A stretch of DNA of 64,000 bases from Leptolyngbya iicbica LK (GTDB lineage Bacteria > Cyanobacteriota > Cyanobacteriia > Phormidesmidales > Phormidesmidaceae): positions 62,001 through 126,000 of the forward strand of contig NZ_QVFV01000007.1 of assembly GCF_004212215.1 (NCBI RefSeq), given 5' to 3'. Shown here piece after piece: positions 15,423-63,835 of this stretch. Both the position numbers and the translations under genes were made by a program. The notes under the pieces are model-generated. The model searched no databases, was not told where the DNA came from, and was given only the letters and a program-made list of their open reading frames with translations. Numbering within the stretch: position 1 is the stretch's first letter; each line of letters begins with the position of its first letter.

Positions 15423-15790
15423 GCTTCTTATTCCAAAGCGAGTTTTAACGTCTTTTATAAATACCTCATTCAGGGGACAAAAAGTAGTCTATTTAACAAA
15501 ATGCTTGGACGTTAACTGTATCCAGAGCTCCCATGCTTTTTACTAAGAGCAACGGAACTGGCAGGACGTATTTGGCCGCGATCGCCCCAGAAACGGCTGC
15601 GGTGCCCTGCCCCGGCTTTCCCCAAGGATGCCTTAGTCAAGGACTCTCAGGACTGCTTGGGCGACCCGCATCGCCACCCAACCCGCAAATGCAAAACCCT
15701 GACAGGGTGAGCCGCCAGGGCGAAAGAGGAATCAGGAATGCGGCTGACAGAATGGACTCATGTGGCAAATTGACGCCGAGCCACCCCCCA
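15423..15790. other. Intergenic stretch, no gene recognised
   Basis: About 370 bp upstream of the lipoprotein gene. A short inverted sequence ACCCTGACAGGGT occurs near 15696 and the right part is rich in CC/GG. I see no terminator, RNA gene or credible ORF. Confidence 0.35.
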
Positions 15791-39686: not shown

Positions 39687-42600
39687 CTAGACGGAACTCA
39701 GCACTTTGTCTTCAGCGACGGCGTCGGGATTCGCCAGCGGCGTGTCGGCCTCAGACGGCGGCACCACCTGCCAGAATTTTGGCAAGTAGGTGTCCCAATC
39801 CGCCAGAATCTTAGCCGCTTTGGCACTGCCAGTGCGCTCAGCGTGGGCCGTAATCATCGCCTTGAGCTGCGCCGCTCCGGCCTCGGTGATCACCCGCTGC
39901 ACCTTCACGATTTCCGGATTCACCCGAGTGGGGAAGTTGCCCGCCTCATCGAGGAAGTAGGCGAGACCGCCGGTCATGCCCGCGCCGACATTGCGCCCGA
40001 CATGACCGAGGACGACCACGACACCACCGGTCATGTACTCACAGCAGTGGTCGCCTGCCCCTTCGATGACCGCTTGACCGAGGGAGTTGCGCACCGCAAA
40101 GCGCTCGCCCGCGATGCCCTGGGCGTACAGCGTCCCGCCCGTGGAGCCGTACAGACAGGTGTTGCCCAGAATCACATTTTCCGAGGGATCGTAAGTGACG
40201 CCGGGGAAGGGCTTGATGACGATTTCGCCACCGTGCATCCCCTTGCCTACATAGTCGTTGGCTTCCCCGATTAGGGTCAGAGTCATGCCGGGCAGGTTGA
40301 ATGCGCCAAAGCTCTGGCCAACGCTGCCTTCAAAGGTCAGGTCGAGCTGGCCCTCGAAGCCGCTGTTGCCGTACTGCTCGGCGATCGCCCCCGACACCCG
40401 CGCTCCCACGGTGCGATCGGTGTTGATCACCTTGAAGGTTTTCTGGACGGTGCCGTGATGGGCGATCGCCGCTTGAATGTCGGCATCCGCCAGCATCTCG
40501 TCGTCCAGCACTGGACCGTTGCTGTGGACACCGCCGTGATCGAGCCAGGTACGGTCAGTGGACACGTCGGGCAGATCTAGCAGGGTAGCCAGGGTGAGGG
40601 AGTCGGTCTTGGTTAGCTTCACGCCGTCGCGGGGCTGCAGCAGGTCGGTGCGGCCAATGATCTCGTTCAGCGAACGGAAACCCAGCCGCGCCAGCAGCGA
40701 TCGCACTTCTTCCGCCACAAAGTAGAAGAAGTTCACCACATGCTCGGGAATGCCGGTGAAGCGCTTCCGCAGTTCTTCCTTCTGGGTGGCGACGCCGACG
40801 GGGCAGTTGTTGGTGTGGCAGACCCGCGCCATGATGCAGCCCTCGGCGATCATGGCGATGGAGCCGAAGCCGTACTCTTCTGCGCCCATGAGGGCACCCA
40901 TGATCACATCCCAGCCGGTCTTCAGGCCACCGTCGACCCGCAGCAGGACGCGATCGCGCAGCTGATTCGCCATCAGCACCTTGTGAACCTCGGTGAGACC
41001 CAGTTCCCAGGGCAGTCCGGCGTGCTTGATGGAGCTGAGGGGCGATGCGCCCGTGCCGCCATCGTGACCGGAAATTTGAATCACGTCGGCGTTGGCTTTG
41101 GCAACTCCCGCAGCAATGGTGCCGATGCCGATTTCCGCCACCAGCTTCACCGAAACCCCCGCTTTGGGATTGATCTGGTGCAGGTCAAAGATTAGCTGTG
41201 CCAGATCCTCAATGGAATAGATGTCGTGGTGGGGCGGTGGCGAAATCAGGGGCACACCGGGCTTGGAGCGCCGCAGCATCGCAATGTAGGGGCTCACCTT
41301 CTTACCGGGAAGTTGCCCCCCTTCACCGGGCTTCGCGCCCTGGGCCATCTTGATTTCGATTTGCTTGGCGTGCATCAGGTACTCAGGCGTCACGCCAAAG
41401 CGACCCGACGCCACCTGCTTGATGGCGGAGCTGGCGGTATCCCCGTCCCGCAACCCTTTCAGGTTCGGGTACAGTTCGGAGCGCCCTTCTGCATCCACGT
41501 TCTTCAGCACTTTGAAGCGCTTCGGATCTTCGCCGCCCTCGCCAGAGTTCGACTTGCCGCCAATACGGTTCATGGCGATCGCCAGCACTTCGTGAGCCTC
41601 CTGGGATAGCGCTCCGAGGGACATGCCCCCGGTGCAGAACCGCTCCATGATGCTGGCAGCGGATTCCACCTCGTCAATGGGAACAGGTGTGCGATCGCTG
41701 GTCAGATCCAGCAGATCCCGCAAGGCCGTGGGGGTGCGCCCTTCGAGCTGCGCTTTGTAGACCTCGTAGTGGTCGTATTCTTTCGACTCCAGCGCCTTGT
41801 GCAGCGCTTTGGTCAGGGCAGGCGTATTCATGTGGTACTCGCCCTTGGGCATCGCCTTCACAAAGCCCATGTTTTCCAGGCGCTTGCCGCCGAGTTCTGG
41901 GAAAGCCTTTTGGTGGAACACATTAGTTTCCTGGGCTAGATCCGCCAGGGTCAGGCCACCCAGGCGAGAGGTGGTGCCCCAGAAAGCAGTTTCCAGCAGA
42001 TCCGCACCAATGCCCACTGCTTCAAAAATCTGTGCGCCCTGGTAGCTGGTGATCAGCGAGATCCCCATCTTGGAGAGAATTTTCAGCAGGCCGTTCTCGA
42101 CCGCTTTGCGATAATTTGCTTGGGCTCCATTCAGCGTCACGCGCTCGATTTTGCCCGTTTCCATCAGCTTTTGGGTGCGGCTGTCGTGCCACCAGTGACG
42201 CACCGATTCCAGCGCCAGGTAAGGACACACGGCACTCGCGCCATAGCCGACCAGGCAAGCAAAGTGATGGGTGCTCCAGCATTGGGCGGTGTCCACCACG
42301 ATGGAAGCTCGCATCCGCAGGCCGGCGCGGATCAGGTGGTGGTGAACGGCTCCGGTCGCGACCAGCGGCGGAATGTAGGTCATGTCGGCAGTCAGGGTGC
42401 AGGGATTGCCGTCAGCATCCACGCGATCGCTGAGCACAATGATTTCGCTTCCGGCTTTGACAGCGGCATCGACGCGATCGCAGAGGGCCGCGATCGCCTG
42501 CTTCAGACCATCCGGACCGCCCTTCACGTCGTACAACGTCGAAATCGTCGTCGTCGGAAAGTCCGACTTCTGCACCTGCTCCAGTTCAATCTCGTTCAAC

Positions 42601-54068: not shown

Positions 54069-55931
54069 ATGGAGCTTGGTCCTCAGACGCTGGTCTCAGT
54101 GCTCTCGAATTACCACAGCCAGTTAGCCAATACCTTGAGCGGTGTCTCTGACCCGGCAGCGCGACGGCAGTTGGCCCATGTGCTGTTGTGTCGCTTGGTG
54201 CTGGTTTATGACCTACAAGTCGGCGGTTTTTTAGCCGGGGGCGATCGCTGGTATTTGCACAATCAGCTAGGCCGCCAGCCGTCAGACAGTCAAAGCAGTT
54301 TTTTTCAGTCATTTTTCCAACCGCTGTGTCATCAGGGCTTGAGCTTGCCAGCGGTAGAACTGCCCAAAGCCCTGAGTCAACGCCTGGGAACTTTGCCTTA
54401 TTTGGGCTGCCGCTTATTCACGCCGCATCCCCTAGAACAGCAACATCCGCAGCTCGATGTGCCCGACGAAATCATGGAGAAGCTGTTGGGGTGGCTCGCT
54501 GAGCAAACCTGGCAGCGCCAATCTCTGGAGAGTGATCCAGACCTCCCCACAACGGCCCTTGCGGACAATGCGATTACGCGGGAGGCATTGGCCCAAGCGT
54601 GGGAAGCTTTGCTAACCGTCCCCGGAGCAAAAGCCACTGCAACTTCGACTGCCCAGTTGTGCGCGATCGCTCAGCAAACGGTGGATCAACAGATTGTCCA
54701 GGCCATCGCTTTCCCGACGTCGGAGCCAGCCACAGAACTGACGGAACTCTTATCCACACTGACGGACGATCGCTGTCAGCAGCTCATTGCCACCGTTTTG
54801 CCCAACCTCTCCATGCTCGATCCGGCCTGCGGTTCTGGACGCTTTTTGCTGATGACGCTAGAACGCTTGCAAACGGTTTACCAAAGCTGCTGGGACTATG
54901 CCCAAACGTCCAGCCATCCAGCTTTGCAAGATTGGGTGCGATCGCTCCAAAATCACGACTGTCCGCCGCAGTGGTTCTGGACGCGGCAAATCATCACTCA
55001 AAGTCTCTACGGTGTGGATCTGCGGCCTGAAGCGATCGCGGTCACGCAAACCCAACTCTGGCTCCGCCTCCTGGCTACCCTCCCTGCTGAGAAGCCACTC
55101 CCCCTACTGCCCGATCTCGATTTCAACATCGTCATGGGGAATGCCCTGGTGGGCTTTATCCGGGTGGATGCGGAAAGCTTTGACCAAATCGCCCCCAAGC
55201 GATCGCCCGCTGAGGCCGAGAGCGAAACCATCTTACAAGGCAACCTCTTGCAGCCCCTGGCTGCCGCCAGTTATCGCGACACCCTGGCGGAAATCCAGAT
55301 TCGCATTGAGCATTACCGCGCTCAAACCCAAGCCATGGGAGCCGAAGGCGGCATTCCCGACTATGTGCAACGGGAGTTTTTGCGCGATCGCATTGCAACC
55401 GTCAACGATGCCGCCCAGCAAAAACTCAACGACCTGCTGTTTGCCACCTGGAGTCGCCAACTCGGTATTGTCGTCAAAGAGCCCCAGGCCACTGGTCGTG
55501 CCCGTAAACGGCTACTGACTCCCGCCGATGTGGCCGCATTACACCCCCTACACTGGGGCTTTGCGTTCAACAAAATCATGGCTCAGGGCGGCTTCGACCT
55601 GATTATTACCCACCCCCCCGAGGGCACCCTCCGTCCCCAAGTCGAGGCGTTCTACTATCAGCATCAAGCACTGTTTGAGCGGGCTGACATTTCGTTGGCG
55701 GCGTTTCGACGATCGCGGCGACAAATTCTTCAGCAGCGACCCGAACTCGCGGCGCTGTGGGCCACCTACGCAGGACGCATCAACAGCCTGCGCGATTGCG
55801 TCCGCCGCAGCCTCGATTATCCTGACTCGGGTGGGGTCAATACCCGGCGATCGATTTCGCTCAAAAGCTTGTTCAGGCAACGGTGCGCTGGGCTAGCCAA
55901 AGCCGACGGCATTGTGCCCCAAGTATTGTGA
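54069..55931 (+). CDS. Type IIG-like N6-adenine methylase, shortened and with altered catalytic motif
   Basis: 620 residues, 3 bp after the SRPBCC gene. S-adenosylmethionine motif I is intact (LDPACGSGRFLL, residues 250-261), and the helical N-terminal region plus GVDLRPEAIAVTQTQLWL and VMGNALVGF follow the Eco57I/type IIG pattern. The catalytic motif IV, normally NPPY/NPPW, reads THPPEG (514-519). Only about 100 residues remain after it, ending LKSLFRQRCAGLAKADG where homologues continue through the rest of the methylase and the target-recognition domain. It is thus probably a decayed or repurposed methylase; there is no separate nuclease gene. Base methylation by it is doubtful. Confidence 0.82.
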   Translation: MELGPQTLVSVLSNYHSQLANTLSGVSDPAARRQLAHVLLCRLVLVYDLQVGGFLAGGDRWYLHNQLGRQPSDSQSSFFQSFFQPLCHQGLSLPAVELPKALSQRLGTLPYLGCRLFTPHPLEQQHPQLDVPDEIMEKLLGWLAEQTWQRQSLESDPDLPTTALADNAITREALAQAWEALLTVPGAKATATSTAQLCAIAQQTVDQQIVQAIAFPTSEPATELTELLSTLTDDRCQQLIATVLPNLSMLDPACGSGRFLLMTLERLQTVYQSCWDYAQTSSHPALQDWVRSLQNHDCPPQWFWTRQIITQSLYGVDLRPEAIAVTQTQLWLRLLATLPAEKPLPLLPDLDFNIVMGNALVGFIRVDAESFDQIAPKRSPAEAESETILQGNLLQPLAAASYRDTLAEIQIRIEHYRAQTQAMGAEGGIPDYVQREFLRDRIATVNDAAQQKLNDLLFATWSRQLGIVVKEPQATGRARKRLLTPADVAALHPLHWGFAFNKIMAQGGFDLIITHPPEGTLRPQVEAFYYQHQALFERADISLAAFRRSRRQILQQRPELAALWATYAGRINSLRDCVRRSLDYPDSGGVNTRRSISLKSLFRQRCAGLAKADGIVPQVL

Positions 55932-58856: not shown

Positions 58857-59471
58857 CTATTTGGCTGGGCAAAAGTGCTCTTCAATCAGCGCGGGAATGT
58901 GTTGTGGTTTCAGACTGCTGTAGCGGTGTTTGCCGGGCATAATCGTGAGGCTGGGCGCTTTGGAGCAGCGCTTTTGACAGCCCGTGTATTGGATTTTGAC
59001 CTGATCGGCGAGTTGGTGGTCTTGCAGGGCTTGTTCGACCGCGGCGAGCACTGACTTGCCGGCCCGTTTTTGGCAACCCGATTTGCGACATACCAATATT
59101 TTGCTGGGGGAGTTCGTAGCTGTGGAAGAGGAAGACGGGTGAGTTAGGCAGGGAGCAGGAGAGCAGGGGGGCGTAGGGGCGGCTGTCGGCGCGATCGCGG
59201 GGCGACTGAGGCCAAAGACCTGAGCGGCTTTGAGCTTGATCAGTCCCGCTTTATAGTCCACTTCGGTAAAGCCGACGCAGGAGACGCGATCGCCGGGTTG
59301 GAGATAGCTCTGAATGCGCGATCGCAATTCCTTCGGCAGTTGAATCGCGATGGGTTCTTGCTCAATGTCTAAAACTAGTGACTTGGGTTTGTGGGGCTTG
59401 CCACCGAGAAAGTCAACGAGTGTGCCTTCCAGGTTGAACAGGCGCGAGGGGCTGGGGGGATTGGTGGGCAT
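58857..59471 (-). CDS. Thioredoxin-like [2Fe-2S] ferredoxin domain protein, nif-adjacent
   Basis: 204 residues from ATG 59471 (MPTNPPSPSRLF; a longer frame only adds low-complexity sequence from a G-rich repeat). Residues 10-95 are beta-rich and contain GTLVDFLGGKPHKPKSLVLD and PGDRVSCVGF, like an OB-fold-type module. A low-complexity linker follows, then a thioredoxin-like [2Fe-2S] domain (about 125-204): KILVCRKSGCQKRAGKSV and YTGCQKRCSKAPSLTIMPG give two Cys pairs. It is the last gene of the minus-strand nif run, so an electron-transfer role in nitrogenase support is possible. Confidence 0.8.
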   Translation of the reverse strand: MPTNPPSPSRLFNLEGTLVDFLGGKPHKPKSLVLDIEQEPIAIQLPKELRSRIQSYLQPGDRVSCVGFTEVDYKAGLIKLKAAQVFGLSRPAIAPTAAPTPPCSPAPCLTHPSSSSTATNSPSKILVCRKSGCQKRAGKSVLAAVEQALQDHQLADQVKIQYTGCQKRCSKAPSLTIMPGKHRYSSLKPQHIPALIEEHFCPAK

Positions 59472-59486
59472 GGGAAGTAGAGGGTA

Positions 59487-59575
59487 GGGGAGCGGAGAGG
59501 CAGGGGGAGCAGGGGAGCGGAGGAGCAGGGGCGCGGAGGAGCAGGGGCGCGGAGGAGCGGAGGAGCAGGAGTGCT
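59487..59575 (+). repeat. G-rich low-complexity tract (GGAGCAGG/GGCGCGGA units)
   Basis: Repeated GGAGCAGGGGCGC and GGAGGAGC units on the plus strand, i.e. C-rich in the transcript of the minus-strand nif genes. It lies between nifT and the [2Fe-2S] gene, just ahead of the latter's start codon. Confidence 0.6.
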
Positions 59576-59646
59576 CACAATCAGAAGTTTGAACTGCTTC
59601 TGCCACTCACTCATTTACTGTCTTCAAGTGGACGGTTGCTGGTTAA

Positions 59647-60136: not shown

Positions 60137-61285
60137 TTAGCGGAGGCTGGGCTGGGTCTGATCAGACTCATAGGAAACGAGGGCGAGCAGTTCGTCGGGG
60201 GTGAGGCTGCGCTTGAGTTGGGTGGAGCGATCGCGCACTGCTTGCAAGACCGATTGACCATTTTGGGCATCGAGCTGCACGCCATAGGTTTGCAGCACCT
60301 GATTGAGCAGGCTGCGGCCCGAATGTTTGCCGATGACGAGGCTGCGCTGACAGCCGACTTCTTTGGGATCGAAGGGTTCGTAGGTGCTGGGATTTTGCAA
60401 GATGCCGTGGGCGTGAATGCCGGACTCATGGGCGAACGTGTTTTGGCCGACGATCGCTTTCCAGGGGGGCACTGGGCAGTTCACCGCCTTCGCCACGAAG
60501 CGGGATAACTCTAAAAAATGCTGGGTCTGGATGCCCAACTTCATCCCATAGATTTGCTTCAGCGTCATCACGACTTCTTCCAGGGCGGCATTACCGGCGC
60601 GTTCGCCCAGCCCGTTAACGGTGGTGTTGACCGAAGTGGCGCCAGCGCGGACGCCTGCAAGCGCGTTGGCCGTGGCTAAGCCCAGATCATTGTGGGTGTG
60701 CATCTCGACGGGAATGTCGAGGGCGGCCACCAGTCGCTGCACTTTGTCGTAGGTGCTGAAGGGGTCGAGAATGCCGACAGTGTCACAAAACCGGAAGCGA
60801 AATGCGCCCCATTCCTGGGCATATTGGGCGGCATCGATTAGGAAGGTGTCATCAGCGCGGGAGCTGTCTTCGCCGCCCACACTGACTTCTAAGCCATGGT
60901 CGCGAGCAAAGGCGATCGCATCGCGCAACTGTTCCAGCATCCGGGCCCAGCGCCCCTGAAACTTGACCTGAATCTGGATGTCGGATACGGGAATGGAGAT
61001 ATGGACCCGCTTGAGCCCGCAGTGCAGCGAGGCTTCGATATCGCTGATGACGGCCCGGTTCCAGCCGAGTAGGTGAGCATTCAGATCCAGGTCGGCGATC
61101 GCACGAATGGCCTGGGCTTCGGCTGCACCCATGGCGGGGATGCCGACTTCTAACTCCTGCACACCAATGGCATCGAGGAATTTGGCGATCGCGATCTTTT
61201 CTTCGAACCCAAAGGCTACGCCAGCGGCTTGTTCGCCATCGCGCAGGGTCGTGTCATTGATGGCAATTGCGGGGGGCTGAGTCAT
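60137..61285 (-). CDS. nifV: Homocitrate synthase NifV
   Basis: 382 residues. NifV condenses acetyl-CoA with 2-oxoglutarate to make homocitrate, the organic ligand of the nitrogenase FeMo cofactor. The TIM-barrel features are [17 protein letters not shown], the metal-site [32 protein letters not shown] and [11 protein letters not shown]. An AAGGAAG ribosome site precedes the ATG. The nif-type rather than leucine- or lysine-type assignment rests on length and on the neighbours nifT, nifP-type cysE and the Asr1405-family gene. Confidence 0.93.
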
Positions 61286-61562: not shown

Positions 61563-61835
61563 CTAGGGGACGGGGGGATGGCTGAGAACAGAGGTGTGCC
61601 AGCAGCGATCGAGCCAGTCGCGTTGTTCTTGGAAGGTGGTGGTGAACTGTTGGACGGTGCTGCGGGCCAAGATCAGGGCCACTGCATGATTAACTTCAAG
61701 GCGCAGGGTGCCGTCTGCAGGGCAAGCACAGGGAATGTTGAGTTCTTGTAATCGGTGGTAAATCGACCAGCGATCGCACCGTTGAATCGAACTCACCGCA
61801 AAGCGGACAGCGGTCGCTGAGTGGGGATTATTCAT
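61563..61835 (-). CDS. Asr1405/Asl0597-family protein, nif-associated
   Basis: 90 residues from ATG 61835 ([12 protein letters not shown]). Its start lies inside the last codons of the cysE gene (8-bp overlap). The core [24 protein letters not shown] followed by [20 protein letters not shown] and WLDRCW matches the small family known from cyanobacterial nif clusters (Asr1405/Asl0597). Function is unknown; conserved Cys and Trp residues suggest a protein-binding or metal role. Family naming is from memory of nif cluster annotation. Confidence 0.75.
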
Positions 61836-62562
61836 GGGAGAGAACCGGGGAAGGAGTGAGAGCGCGGGCCGCCGCCAGCTGCTGAACCTGGGTTTCGAGG
61901 GCTTCGATGCGATCGAGCAATTGCCGGATGGTGGCGGCTTCGGCATCGGGCAACTGGGCATGGTTAAGCGGCGCATCGGCGATGTTGCAGCGGCCAACGA
62001 TGCGGTTGGGCACGCCGACGGCGGTGCAGTTGGCGGGCACGGCGGTCAAAACAACGGAACCGGCCCCAATGCGAGCACCCTCACCGATGTGAATGTTGCC
62101 GAGGACTTTGGCTCCAGCTCCGATGACGACGCGGTTGCCCACGGTGGGGTGTCGCTTGCCGGTCTCTTTGCCCGTGCCGCCCAGGGTGACGCCTTGGTAA
62201 ATCAACACGTAGTCGCCCACGATCGCCGTTTCGCCAATCACGACACCCATGCCATGGTCGATGACCAGGCCGCGCCCCAACTGCGCACCGGGATGAATTT
62301 CGATGCCCGTCAGGCAGCGGCTGAGGTGGCTAATGAGTCGCGGCAATAGCGGCAGTTGTTGGCGATGAAGGGCATGGGCCAAGCGATGGAGAGCGATCGC
62401 ATGCAGTCCGGCAGAACACAGTAAGACTGCCAGCCAGTGGGTGGCGGCGGGGTCTCGTTCAAAAATCGCCTGAAAATCTGCGACTAGCGGTAGGGTACGG
62501 AACCCGCAAAGTCCAGACAATCGCCACTGAGTAGTTGTTAGACGAGGGGAAGAAAGAGACAT
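61828..62562 (-). CDS. nifP: Serine O-acetyltransferase, nif-type (NifP)
   Basis: 244 residues from ATG 62562 (TTG at 62571 possible). CysE-type enzymes acetylate serine to O-acetylserine for cysteine synthesis; a second copy in nif clusters (nifP) boosts cysteine for Fe-S cluster building. The N-terminal SAT domain shows [20 protein letters not shown] and [10 protein letters not shown]. The left-handed beta-helix has [56 protein letters not shown] and the catalytic His region. The last 45 residues form a coiled-coil tail. It is the first gene of the minus-strand nif run; three TGTACTCA motifs lie upstream. Confidence 0.88.
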
Positions 62563-62657
62563 GACGCGCAAGGGGCTTGGTTTCCTTGCTTATACCAACC
62601 GCCTCAGTTAACAATCAGCCGCCGTCGGCCGTCCAAACTTACTAAGGATATTAGTGA

Positions 62658-62853
62658 TGTACTCAGGTGGGCGATCGCTGACCCTAGCGACGGTCTCGAC
62701 TTTATTGGAGGGGTAGGCACGAGTATTTTGCTGCCTCAGTACACGTATTTTGAGAGCCTGCGACAGGTATTGTGTACTCAGTAAAATCACTTGATATCGC
62801 AGGCTTTGAGGCCGTTTGCTGTCTACCGCAAAGACGGGCACAAGGTGTACTCA
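62658..62853 (-). promoter_or_regulatory. Three TGAGTACA motifs upstream of nifP (putative nif activator sites)
   Basis: TGTACTCA (TGAGTACA read in the nifP direction) occurs exactly at 62658-62665, 62773-62780 and 62846-62853; a near match TCAGTACA lies at 62736-62743. An 8-mer is expected only about twice in the whole window on both strands, so three in 196 bp is a strong cluster. From memory, a TGAGTACA-type element is the recognition sequence of the activator CnfR in Leptolyngbya nif promoters; I could not check that here. Confidence 0.6.
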
Positions 62854-63040
62854 AATCCCCGACGATGGCGACTGCCGCAACGTTTCGGCCATTCAAAACG
62901 TATCCGATTATGCAAAGTGAAAATCGGCTTTTTCAGCATCCCTTAACAAAGTTATTGTCTCATCAACGAATATAGTGTGGTCGGGATACCGCCTCCCGAC
63001 CGCTTCGATGACTTGCTGCCCTAACGACCTGGTGCGCCCT

Positions 63041-63835
63041 ATGCCGACTCCTGCAATTCTCGCCCTCGACTTTGACGGTGTGCTCTGCGATGGCCTGGTG
63101 GAATATTTTCAGACTGCCTGGCAAGCCTATTGCCAACTGTTTGACCAATCGCCTACGGTCCCCCCGGCGGGATTAGCCGAGCGCTTTTACCCTCTGCGGC
63201 CCGTGATTGAAACCGGGTGGGAAATGCCGCTGTTGCTTCACGCACTCCAGCAGGGAGTCGAAGATGCCGCCGTGTTGGACCACTGGCCCACGATCGTGCA
63301 GGAAATTTTGGCAGAGACGAAAATTCCATCAGATGTGGCAATGGCGGCGGTGGATGGCGTGCGCGATCGCTGGATGCAGTCTGACTTAGCGGGCTGGCTG
63401 AGCCTCCATCGCTTTTATCCCGGCGTGATTGAGCGGTTGCAAGGGGCGATCGCGGCGGGCGTCTTTCCCGTCATCATTTCCACCAAAGAGGGGCGCTTCA
63501 TTCAGGAACTGTTGGCTCAAGCTGGGGTCGAGTTGCCCCGCGAGCAAATTATCGGCAAAGAAATTCAACAACCGAAAACCACCACCCTCAAGCAACTGCA
63601 AGCCGAGCCGCCGATCGCTGCCGCTGCTGCCCAACCGATCTGGTTTGTCGAAGATCGCCTGAAAACGCTAGATAAGGTGCAAGCAGATTCGGCATTAAAT
63701 GACATCACGTTATTTTTGGCGGATTGGGGCTATAACACGGCGGCAGAACGCGATCGCGCAACCAGTGATCCGCGTGTCCATCTCCTATTGCTGTCCCAAT
63801 TTGCAGACGAATTTGCTAACTGGATATCGGCTTGA
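63041..63835 (+). CDS. HAD-superfamily hydrolase
   Basis: 264 residues from ATG 63041 (MPTPAILALDFDGVLCDGLVEY; an upstream in-frame ATG adds 22 unlike residues). Motif I DFDGVLCDG holds the nucleophile Asp; motif II is VIISTKEGRF, Lys is in IIGKEIQQPKTTTLKQL, and motif III lies in IWFVEDRLKTLDKVQAD. This is a subfamily-I-like HAD with a helical cap. Substrate unknown, probably a small phosphorylated metabolite. It is transcribed away from nifP, so the 478-bp region between them is a divergent promoter; in other diazotrophs nifB often occupies this position. Confidence 0.88.
   Translation: MPTPAILALDFDGVLCDGLVEYFQTAWQAYCQLFDQSPTVPPAGLAERFYPLRPVIETGWEMPLLLHALQQGVEDAAVLDHWPTIVQEILAETKIPSDVAMAAVDGVRDRWMQSDLAGWLSLHRFYPGVIERLQGAIAAGVFPVIISTKEGRFIQELLAQAGVELPREQIIGKEIQQPKTTTLKQLQAEPPIAAAAAQPIWFVEDRLKTLDKVQADSALNDITLFLADWGYNTAAERDRATSDPRVHLLLLSQFADEFANWISA

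Follow-up and report, generated by a model that had tools for sequence, protein, structure and literature searches.

A well-preserved candidate CnfR-dependent promoter of nifP in a cyanobacterial genome whose nifB and nifP lie far apart

The region upstream of nifP in the 64-kb window analyzed here (G000:C7:62001-126000, the whole stretch of DNA under study, from a 5.72-Mb genome in 16 contigs) is in all probability the CnfR-dependent promoter of the nifP-(asr1405-like)-nifV gene group, to which CnfR is predicted to bind. A CnfR-type nif promoter had been proposed in the preliminary description of this DNA, and this reading is supported by a cnfR-like gene, by the presence of the spaced motif at both nifB and nifP, and by its nif-linked enrichment. 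Judged from its sequence, the nifP promoter is a well-preserved example of a known cyanobacterial type. The type is not new, because CnfR-driven PnifB and PnifP with conserved motifs have been published for L. boryana, in which CnfR drives the divergent transcription of nifB and nifP, also in Synechocystis carrying cnfR (according to the part of PMC5943405 drawn on here, which mentions motifs I to IX). The earlier claim of a new arrangement was thus given up. A local feature of this lineage is that nifB and nifP lie far apart, with a full element at each.

Results

The nifP locus and its upstream region

We assigned nifP, a nif-linked serine O-acetyltransferase gene, to 61828..62571 on the minus strand (TIGR01172 cysE, 6.2e-72, above cut-off); its ORF begins with TTG at 62571, and an in-frame ATG was read by eye at 62562. 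Downstream on the same strand are a small protein of the Asr1405/Asl0597 family (61563-61997; NF045598 above cut-off), located between nifP and nifV, and the homocitrate synthase gene nifV itself (60137..61285; TIGR02660, 1.1e-161). Among the matches listed, 57 of the 63 nif-linked loci described below had an Asr1405-like match no more than 1 kb from the end of nifP. Near nifV, a 249-aa protein (58857-59606, minus strand) has a C-terminal match of the 2Fe-2S thioredoxin type that did not reach the cut-offs. Elsewhere in the window, a 620-aa protein (54069-55931, plus strand) gave MmeI and Eco57I methylase matches just above the Pfam cut-offs, and BREX PglX matches far below cut-off.

The three exact copies of TGAGTACA upstream of nifP that had been described were confirmed, all on the minus strand and hence in the sense of nifP. 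The distal site (62846-62853), whose position is conserved in relatives, is separated by 73 bp from the middle site (62773-62780), a distance of 71-74 bp in relatives, and the proximal site (62658-62665) comes after a further 115 bp. Three AATAC boxes, AATACCTGTCGC, AATACGTGTACT and AATACTCGTGCC (62716..62771, minus strand), occupy the interval between it and the middle site, starting at 62771, 62749 and 62727 with an exact 22-bp period. The one-mismatch copy TCAGTACA (62736-62743, plus strand), previously counted as a fourth spaced site, falls inside the middle one of these boxes and is not a fourth TGAGTACA site. Directly downstream of the proximal site, a box of the form CTAAT..TTAGT, CTAATATCCTTAGTAAGTTTGGA (62632..62654, minus strand), is conserved in our alignments A1 and A2. 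This is followed by the extended -10-like TGGTATAAG (62589..62597, minus strand), identified by sequence match, from which nifP transcription would start near 62582. In L. boryana, the distance from the element to the start site is reported to be about 76 bp.

On the other side of this region lies a divergent HAD-like hydrolase gene (62975..63835, plus strand; PF00702, 0.00076, below the curated cut-off), which probably just adjoins the nif promoter without belonging to it. Control in both directions, with this gene also driven by the element, would be compatible with the distance of about 190 bp between the distal TGAGTACA site and the in-frame ATG read by eye at 63041, and the HAD-nifP neighbourhood recurs in one same-genus genome among the matches listed. 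We consider it very unlikely, in view of the orientation of all three sites and of the -10-like sequence towards nifP, and of the fact that nifB, where it occupies the other side, mostly has an element of its own (12/16 and 8/9 in the two sets below). The divergent HAD gene in the place of nifB had been put forward as a novelty; among the 110 loci listed, many of them short, it stands beside nifP only in the window and in L038 with its duplicate L067, which are the same region of one same-genus genome.

Clustering of the sites and occurrence within the genome

The signal is the clustering of TGAGTACA sites and not their abundance in the window. The window holds five exact copies, of which the two outside the cluster are at 40034 and 46864, and the genome count of 98 on both strands corresponds to a density of about 1.1 per 64 kb. 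When one mismatch was allowed, there was no clear enrichment over the whole window (30 observed against a mean of 23.5 expected, with 11 of 100 shuffles reaching 30). The genome-wide count, which is moderately above the 73 copies of the reversed control word, lends some plausibility to the idea that a common 8-mer has clustered here by chance. Against this, random placement of 98 sites predicts about 0.0005 triples within a span of 196 bp in the whole genome, and the position, orientation and spacing of the sites are conserved across genera, so that we regard chance as a negligible explanation. The lone 8-mer was rejected as a genome-wide marker, since with 98 copies it is uninformative.

We then searched the genome for the composite element. 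Three GAGTNC words at the observed spacings gave two matches, the nifP and nifB promoters, while the reversed control gave none. The looser pair of ATACTCG and GAGTNC was rejected because only two of its six matches were nifB and nifP and its control gave one. For a profile search, we built the sequence-only profile R1 from 31 nifP elements (alignment A1) chosen from 38 tight triples, leaving out L037, L038, L041, L043 and L044 as own or same-genus loci, on the basis of names only, and L097 and L101 as close Nostoc copies. With 150 of 443 first-look candidates scored, the profile recovered nifP (E 7.5e-25) and nifB (E 1.9e-17), and the sole further match up to E 10 had a value of 0.0755. The element is thus common to nifB and nifP of the same genome, with no other significant match. 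As for the nif enrichment that the motif was expected to show, the clustered, spaced form occurs only at the nifB and nifP promoters, whereas the single 8-mer is scattered. The upstream region of nifB contains GAGTRC at L006:15586, 15659 and 15775, and two AAYAC boxes with a 22-bp spacing, at 15690 and 15712.

Other nif genes and a cnfR-like gene

The nifB gene starts at C2:1511130 in the ORF table (TIGR01290, 8.7e-199), and the single NifH match above the family cut-off in the genome lies beside the nif cluster on this contig, C2. After nifHDK, at the place expected for nifE and nifN, there is a single 995-aa ORF (L007, G000:C2:1520650-1523637), whose position and length suggest a fused NifEN. 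In tblastn, this ORF also found matches in L128, as a single stretch of about 2.7 kb (68%), and in L138 (70%).

The preliminary description had made its reading depend on a cnfR homologue, and a cnfR-like gene is present at C12:6277-7920. The encoded protein of 547 aa has an N-terminal Fer4 (PF00037) and a C-terminal HTH_3 domain, both above Pfam cut-offs, and one CxxCxxCxxxC string; a second cysteine group was recognized by eye, and Fer4_9 and Fer4_10 were below cut-off. This domain layout is close to that published for CnfR, which has two ferredoxin-type 4Fe-4S sites at the N-terminus and an XRE helix-turn-helix at the C-terminus (in the part of PMC8510180 used here). Furthermore, in 3 of the 110 loci listed (L067, L071 and L132), this ORF has a match about 2-3 kb downstream of nifV. 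On the basis of the domain layout and of this nif linkage of its relatives in three loci, we call C12:6277-7920 a putative CnfR gene.

nif-linked nifP genes and other cysE-type genes

To the best 30 places from the family of this genome, 58 of whose 63 genomes gave a match, we added the best 80 of 459 from public genome contigs, so that the resulting set leans to close NifP relatives. Among these 110 loci (L037-L146), 63 were nif-linked, as defined by a match to NifV, NifB, the Asr1405-like ORF, NifEN, CnfR or NifH, and 47 were non-linked; removal of eight duplicates left 55 linked loci. L087, with a NifV match of 31% identity, was assigned by hand to the non-nif group, and some non-linked loci are short and may count as unlinked for that reason alone. 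Since both sets contain close relatives, the counts are not independent events.

As a result, among the matches listed, exact TGAGTACA was present within 700 bp upstream of 52 of the 55 nif-linked nifP genes, being absent from the other three, as against 6 of the 47 other cysE-type genes; the corresponding totals were 112 and 6 sites. The motif is therefore far from equally frequent upstream of these other cysE-type genes. The distances between same-strand GAGTRC words were mostly 71-74, 112-118 and 184-202 bp in the linked set, with smaller groups at 10 (12 loci), 83-84 and 127 bp and stray values of 11, 14, 172, 220, 231 and 243 bp, and only 96, 233 and 253 bp in the non-linked cysE set, all among the matches listed. 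The looser word GAGTNC or GAGTAT also gave pairs, spaced by 182 or 198 bp, in two non-linked cysE loci. A doublet of GAGTGC and then GAGTAC, 10 bp apart, forms the distal site in some Nostoc loci, among them L091 and L097.

The tight triple occurred upstream of 38 of the 55 nif-linked nifP genes and was missing from 17, and AAYRC boxes between the middle and proximal sites were separated by 22 bp (34 counts) or 44 bp (23 counts) in relatives, again among the matches listed. Upstream of nifB, the triple was found in 12 of 16 cases including our own, with four lacking it, and in 8 of 9 cases of a second set, partly from the same genomes, in which L192 lacked it. By these sequence comparisons, cyanobacterial nifP promoters commonly have three spaced sites, and the multiple spaced sites of the window, once regarded as novel, thus belong to the usual pattern.

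Distribution in the phylum

We next surveyed 386 genomes of the phylum, with cross-tables compiled by hand and membership compared by eye. nifB was above cut-off in 71 genomes and a cnfR match, in some cases partial, was present in 73, with both in 70. This bears on the alternative that another nitrogen or redox regulator, such as NtcA, binds the sites and CnfR acts only indirectly. CnfR binding at the sites is our reading of the sequence, and in A. variabilis the expression of cnfR2 requires NtcA (in the cited part of PMC8510180), both of which leave some room for such a regulator. The cnfR match in 70 of the 71 nifB genomes speaks against it, as does, for NtcA, a pattern search for GTAN8TAC, which found none in 62500-62900. 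We accordingly give this alternative little credence and retain CnfR as the probable direct activator. The 700 bp upstream of the cnfR-like ORF likewise contained no GTAN8TAC.

A loose composite pattern of three GAGTNC words matched 65 of the 386 genomes (47/71 with nifB, 18/315 without), and its reversed control matched 72 (21/71 with nifB, 51/315 without). We rejected it as a phylum marker, as it is a poor one by itself when the control is found in 72 genomes and some of the matches are simple or short repeats, for example in G070, G124, G217 and G273. A tightened pattern, GAGTAC followed by two GAGTRC, which was chosen after this control result, matched 43 genomes, each of which is one of the 71 with nifB and one of the 73 with a cnfR match. 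It did not occur in any of the 315 genomes without nifB above cut-off, and its reversed control gave none among the matches listed. The tightened pattern was absent from 28 of the 71 nifB genomes, in which the layout is therefore looser or different.

Separation of nifB and nifP

In this genome, nifB and nifP are on different contigs, C2 and C7, each with a full three-site element. In seven of ten relatives (G004, G005, G006, G058, G036, G021 and G014), nifB and nifP are a few kb apart on one contig, with nifB pointing away from nifP; the nifB match of G005 is partial and below cut-off. Of the remaining three, G003 had no nifB match, G057 has nifB and nifP on different contigs, and the same-genus G002 has them on a single contig at a distance of about 4.4 Mb, with a triple at 73 and 115 bp upstream of nifB (L194). 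Since nifB is near nifP in seven of the ten relatives, and the HAD gene stands beside nifP only in our own locus and L038/L067 among the loci listed, it seems that a shared nifB-nifP region was separated once in this lineage, both halves keeping the three-site element.

The occurrence of nifP apart from nifB is in itself not new and was already reported for Anabaena variabilis, where about 11 kb separate the nif1 cluster from nifP downstream of it (part of PMC4284476). In addition, several Nostoc loci among the matches listed have distal and proximal sites at nifP and no nifB within the fetched stretch.

Discussion

The element described here shares with the CnfR cis-acting element of PnifB and PnifP in L. 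boryana, which Tsujimoto et al. (2016, doi 10.1111/mmi.13402) reportedly described, its location at the nifP and nifB promoters, its several conserved motifs and CnfR as the activator (parts of PMC5943405 and PMC8510180). The two differ in that nifB and nifP of L. boryana diverge from one shared intergenic region, whereas here they are on separate contigs with a full element each. It also resembles nifB1 and nifB2 of A. variabilis, which have a conserved TGAGTATA motif together with another motif, and three cis elements (parts of PMC4284476 and PMC8510180). These nifB promoters have an extended -10 without a -35 (same sources), and TGGTATAAG is a candidate for the corresponding -10 upstream of nifP. 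In A. variabilis, the organism is heterocyst-forming, the gene is nifB and not nifP, and the elements lie 300-600 bp upstream of the start site (same sources). The three conserved elements upstream of nifB are thought to be CnfR sites, and in A. variabilis nifB1 transcription falls by about 50% when one of the first two is lost and by 75% when both are (as given in part of PMC8510180). Literature searches with TGAGTACA and nif brought unrelated papers among the matches listed, TGAGTAC with cyanobacter and nitrogenase gave no match, and among the titles listed in two further searches, one on CnfR and one on patB with nif, none other than those of the papers cited here concerned CnfR binding.

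We propose that CnfR, with its ferredoxin-type cysteine region and XRE helix-turn-helix, would be active at low oxygen and bind several sites that lie roughly on one side of the helix. The bound CnfR may then recruit RNA polymerase to the extended -10, and nifP and nifV would thereby be switched on together with the nifB cluster. The spacings of 73, 115 and 22 bp are near whole helical turns, which suggests that the sites are on one helix face. Rarer variants, representing few independent events, are about one turn off, namely 83-84 instead of 73 bp and 126-129 instead of 115 bp in some lineages among the matches listed. A strictly helix-phased scaffold, with TGAGTACA sites about 7 and 11 turns apart, AATAC boxes in steps of about two turns, and lineage spacer changes tending to about one turn, is a tentative idea that we would not yet favour. 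If it is true, CnfR acts on one face of the DNA as an assembly of several subunits, and each of perhaps two box types is recognized by its own protein surface or its own protein.

The nif switch of this strain would thus be the ordinary cyanobacterial one, its anatomy having been derived from sequence alone. The profile and the spacing rule may be used to find CnfR-controlled genes in other genomes. Furthermore, the separated nifB and nifP suggest that, when a shared intergenic region breaks, each gene group retains one full element, and such retention would be useful to consider in moving nif clusters into new hosts.
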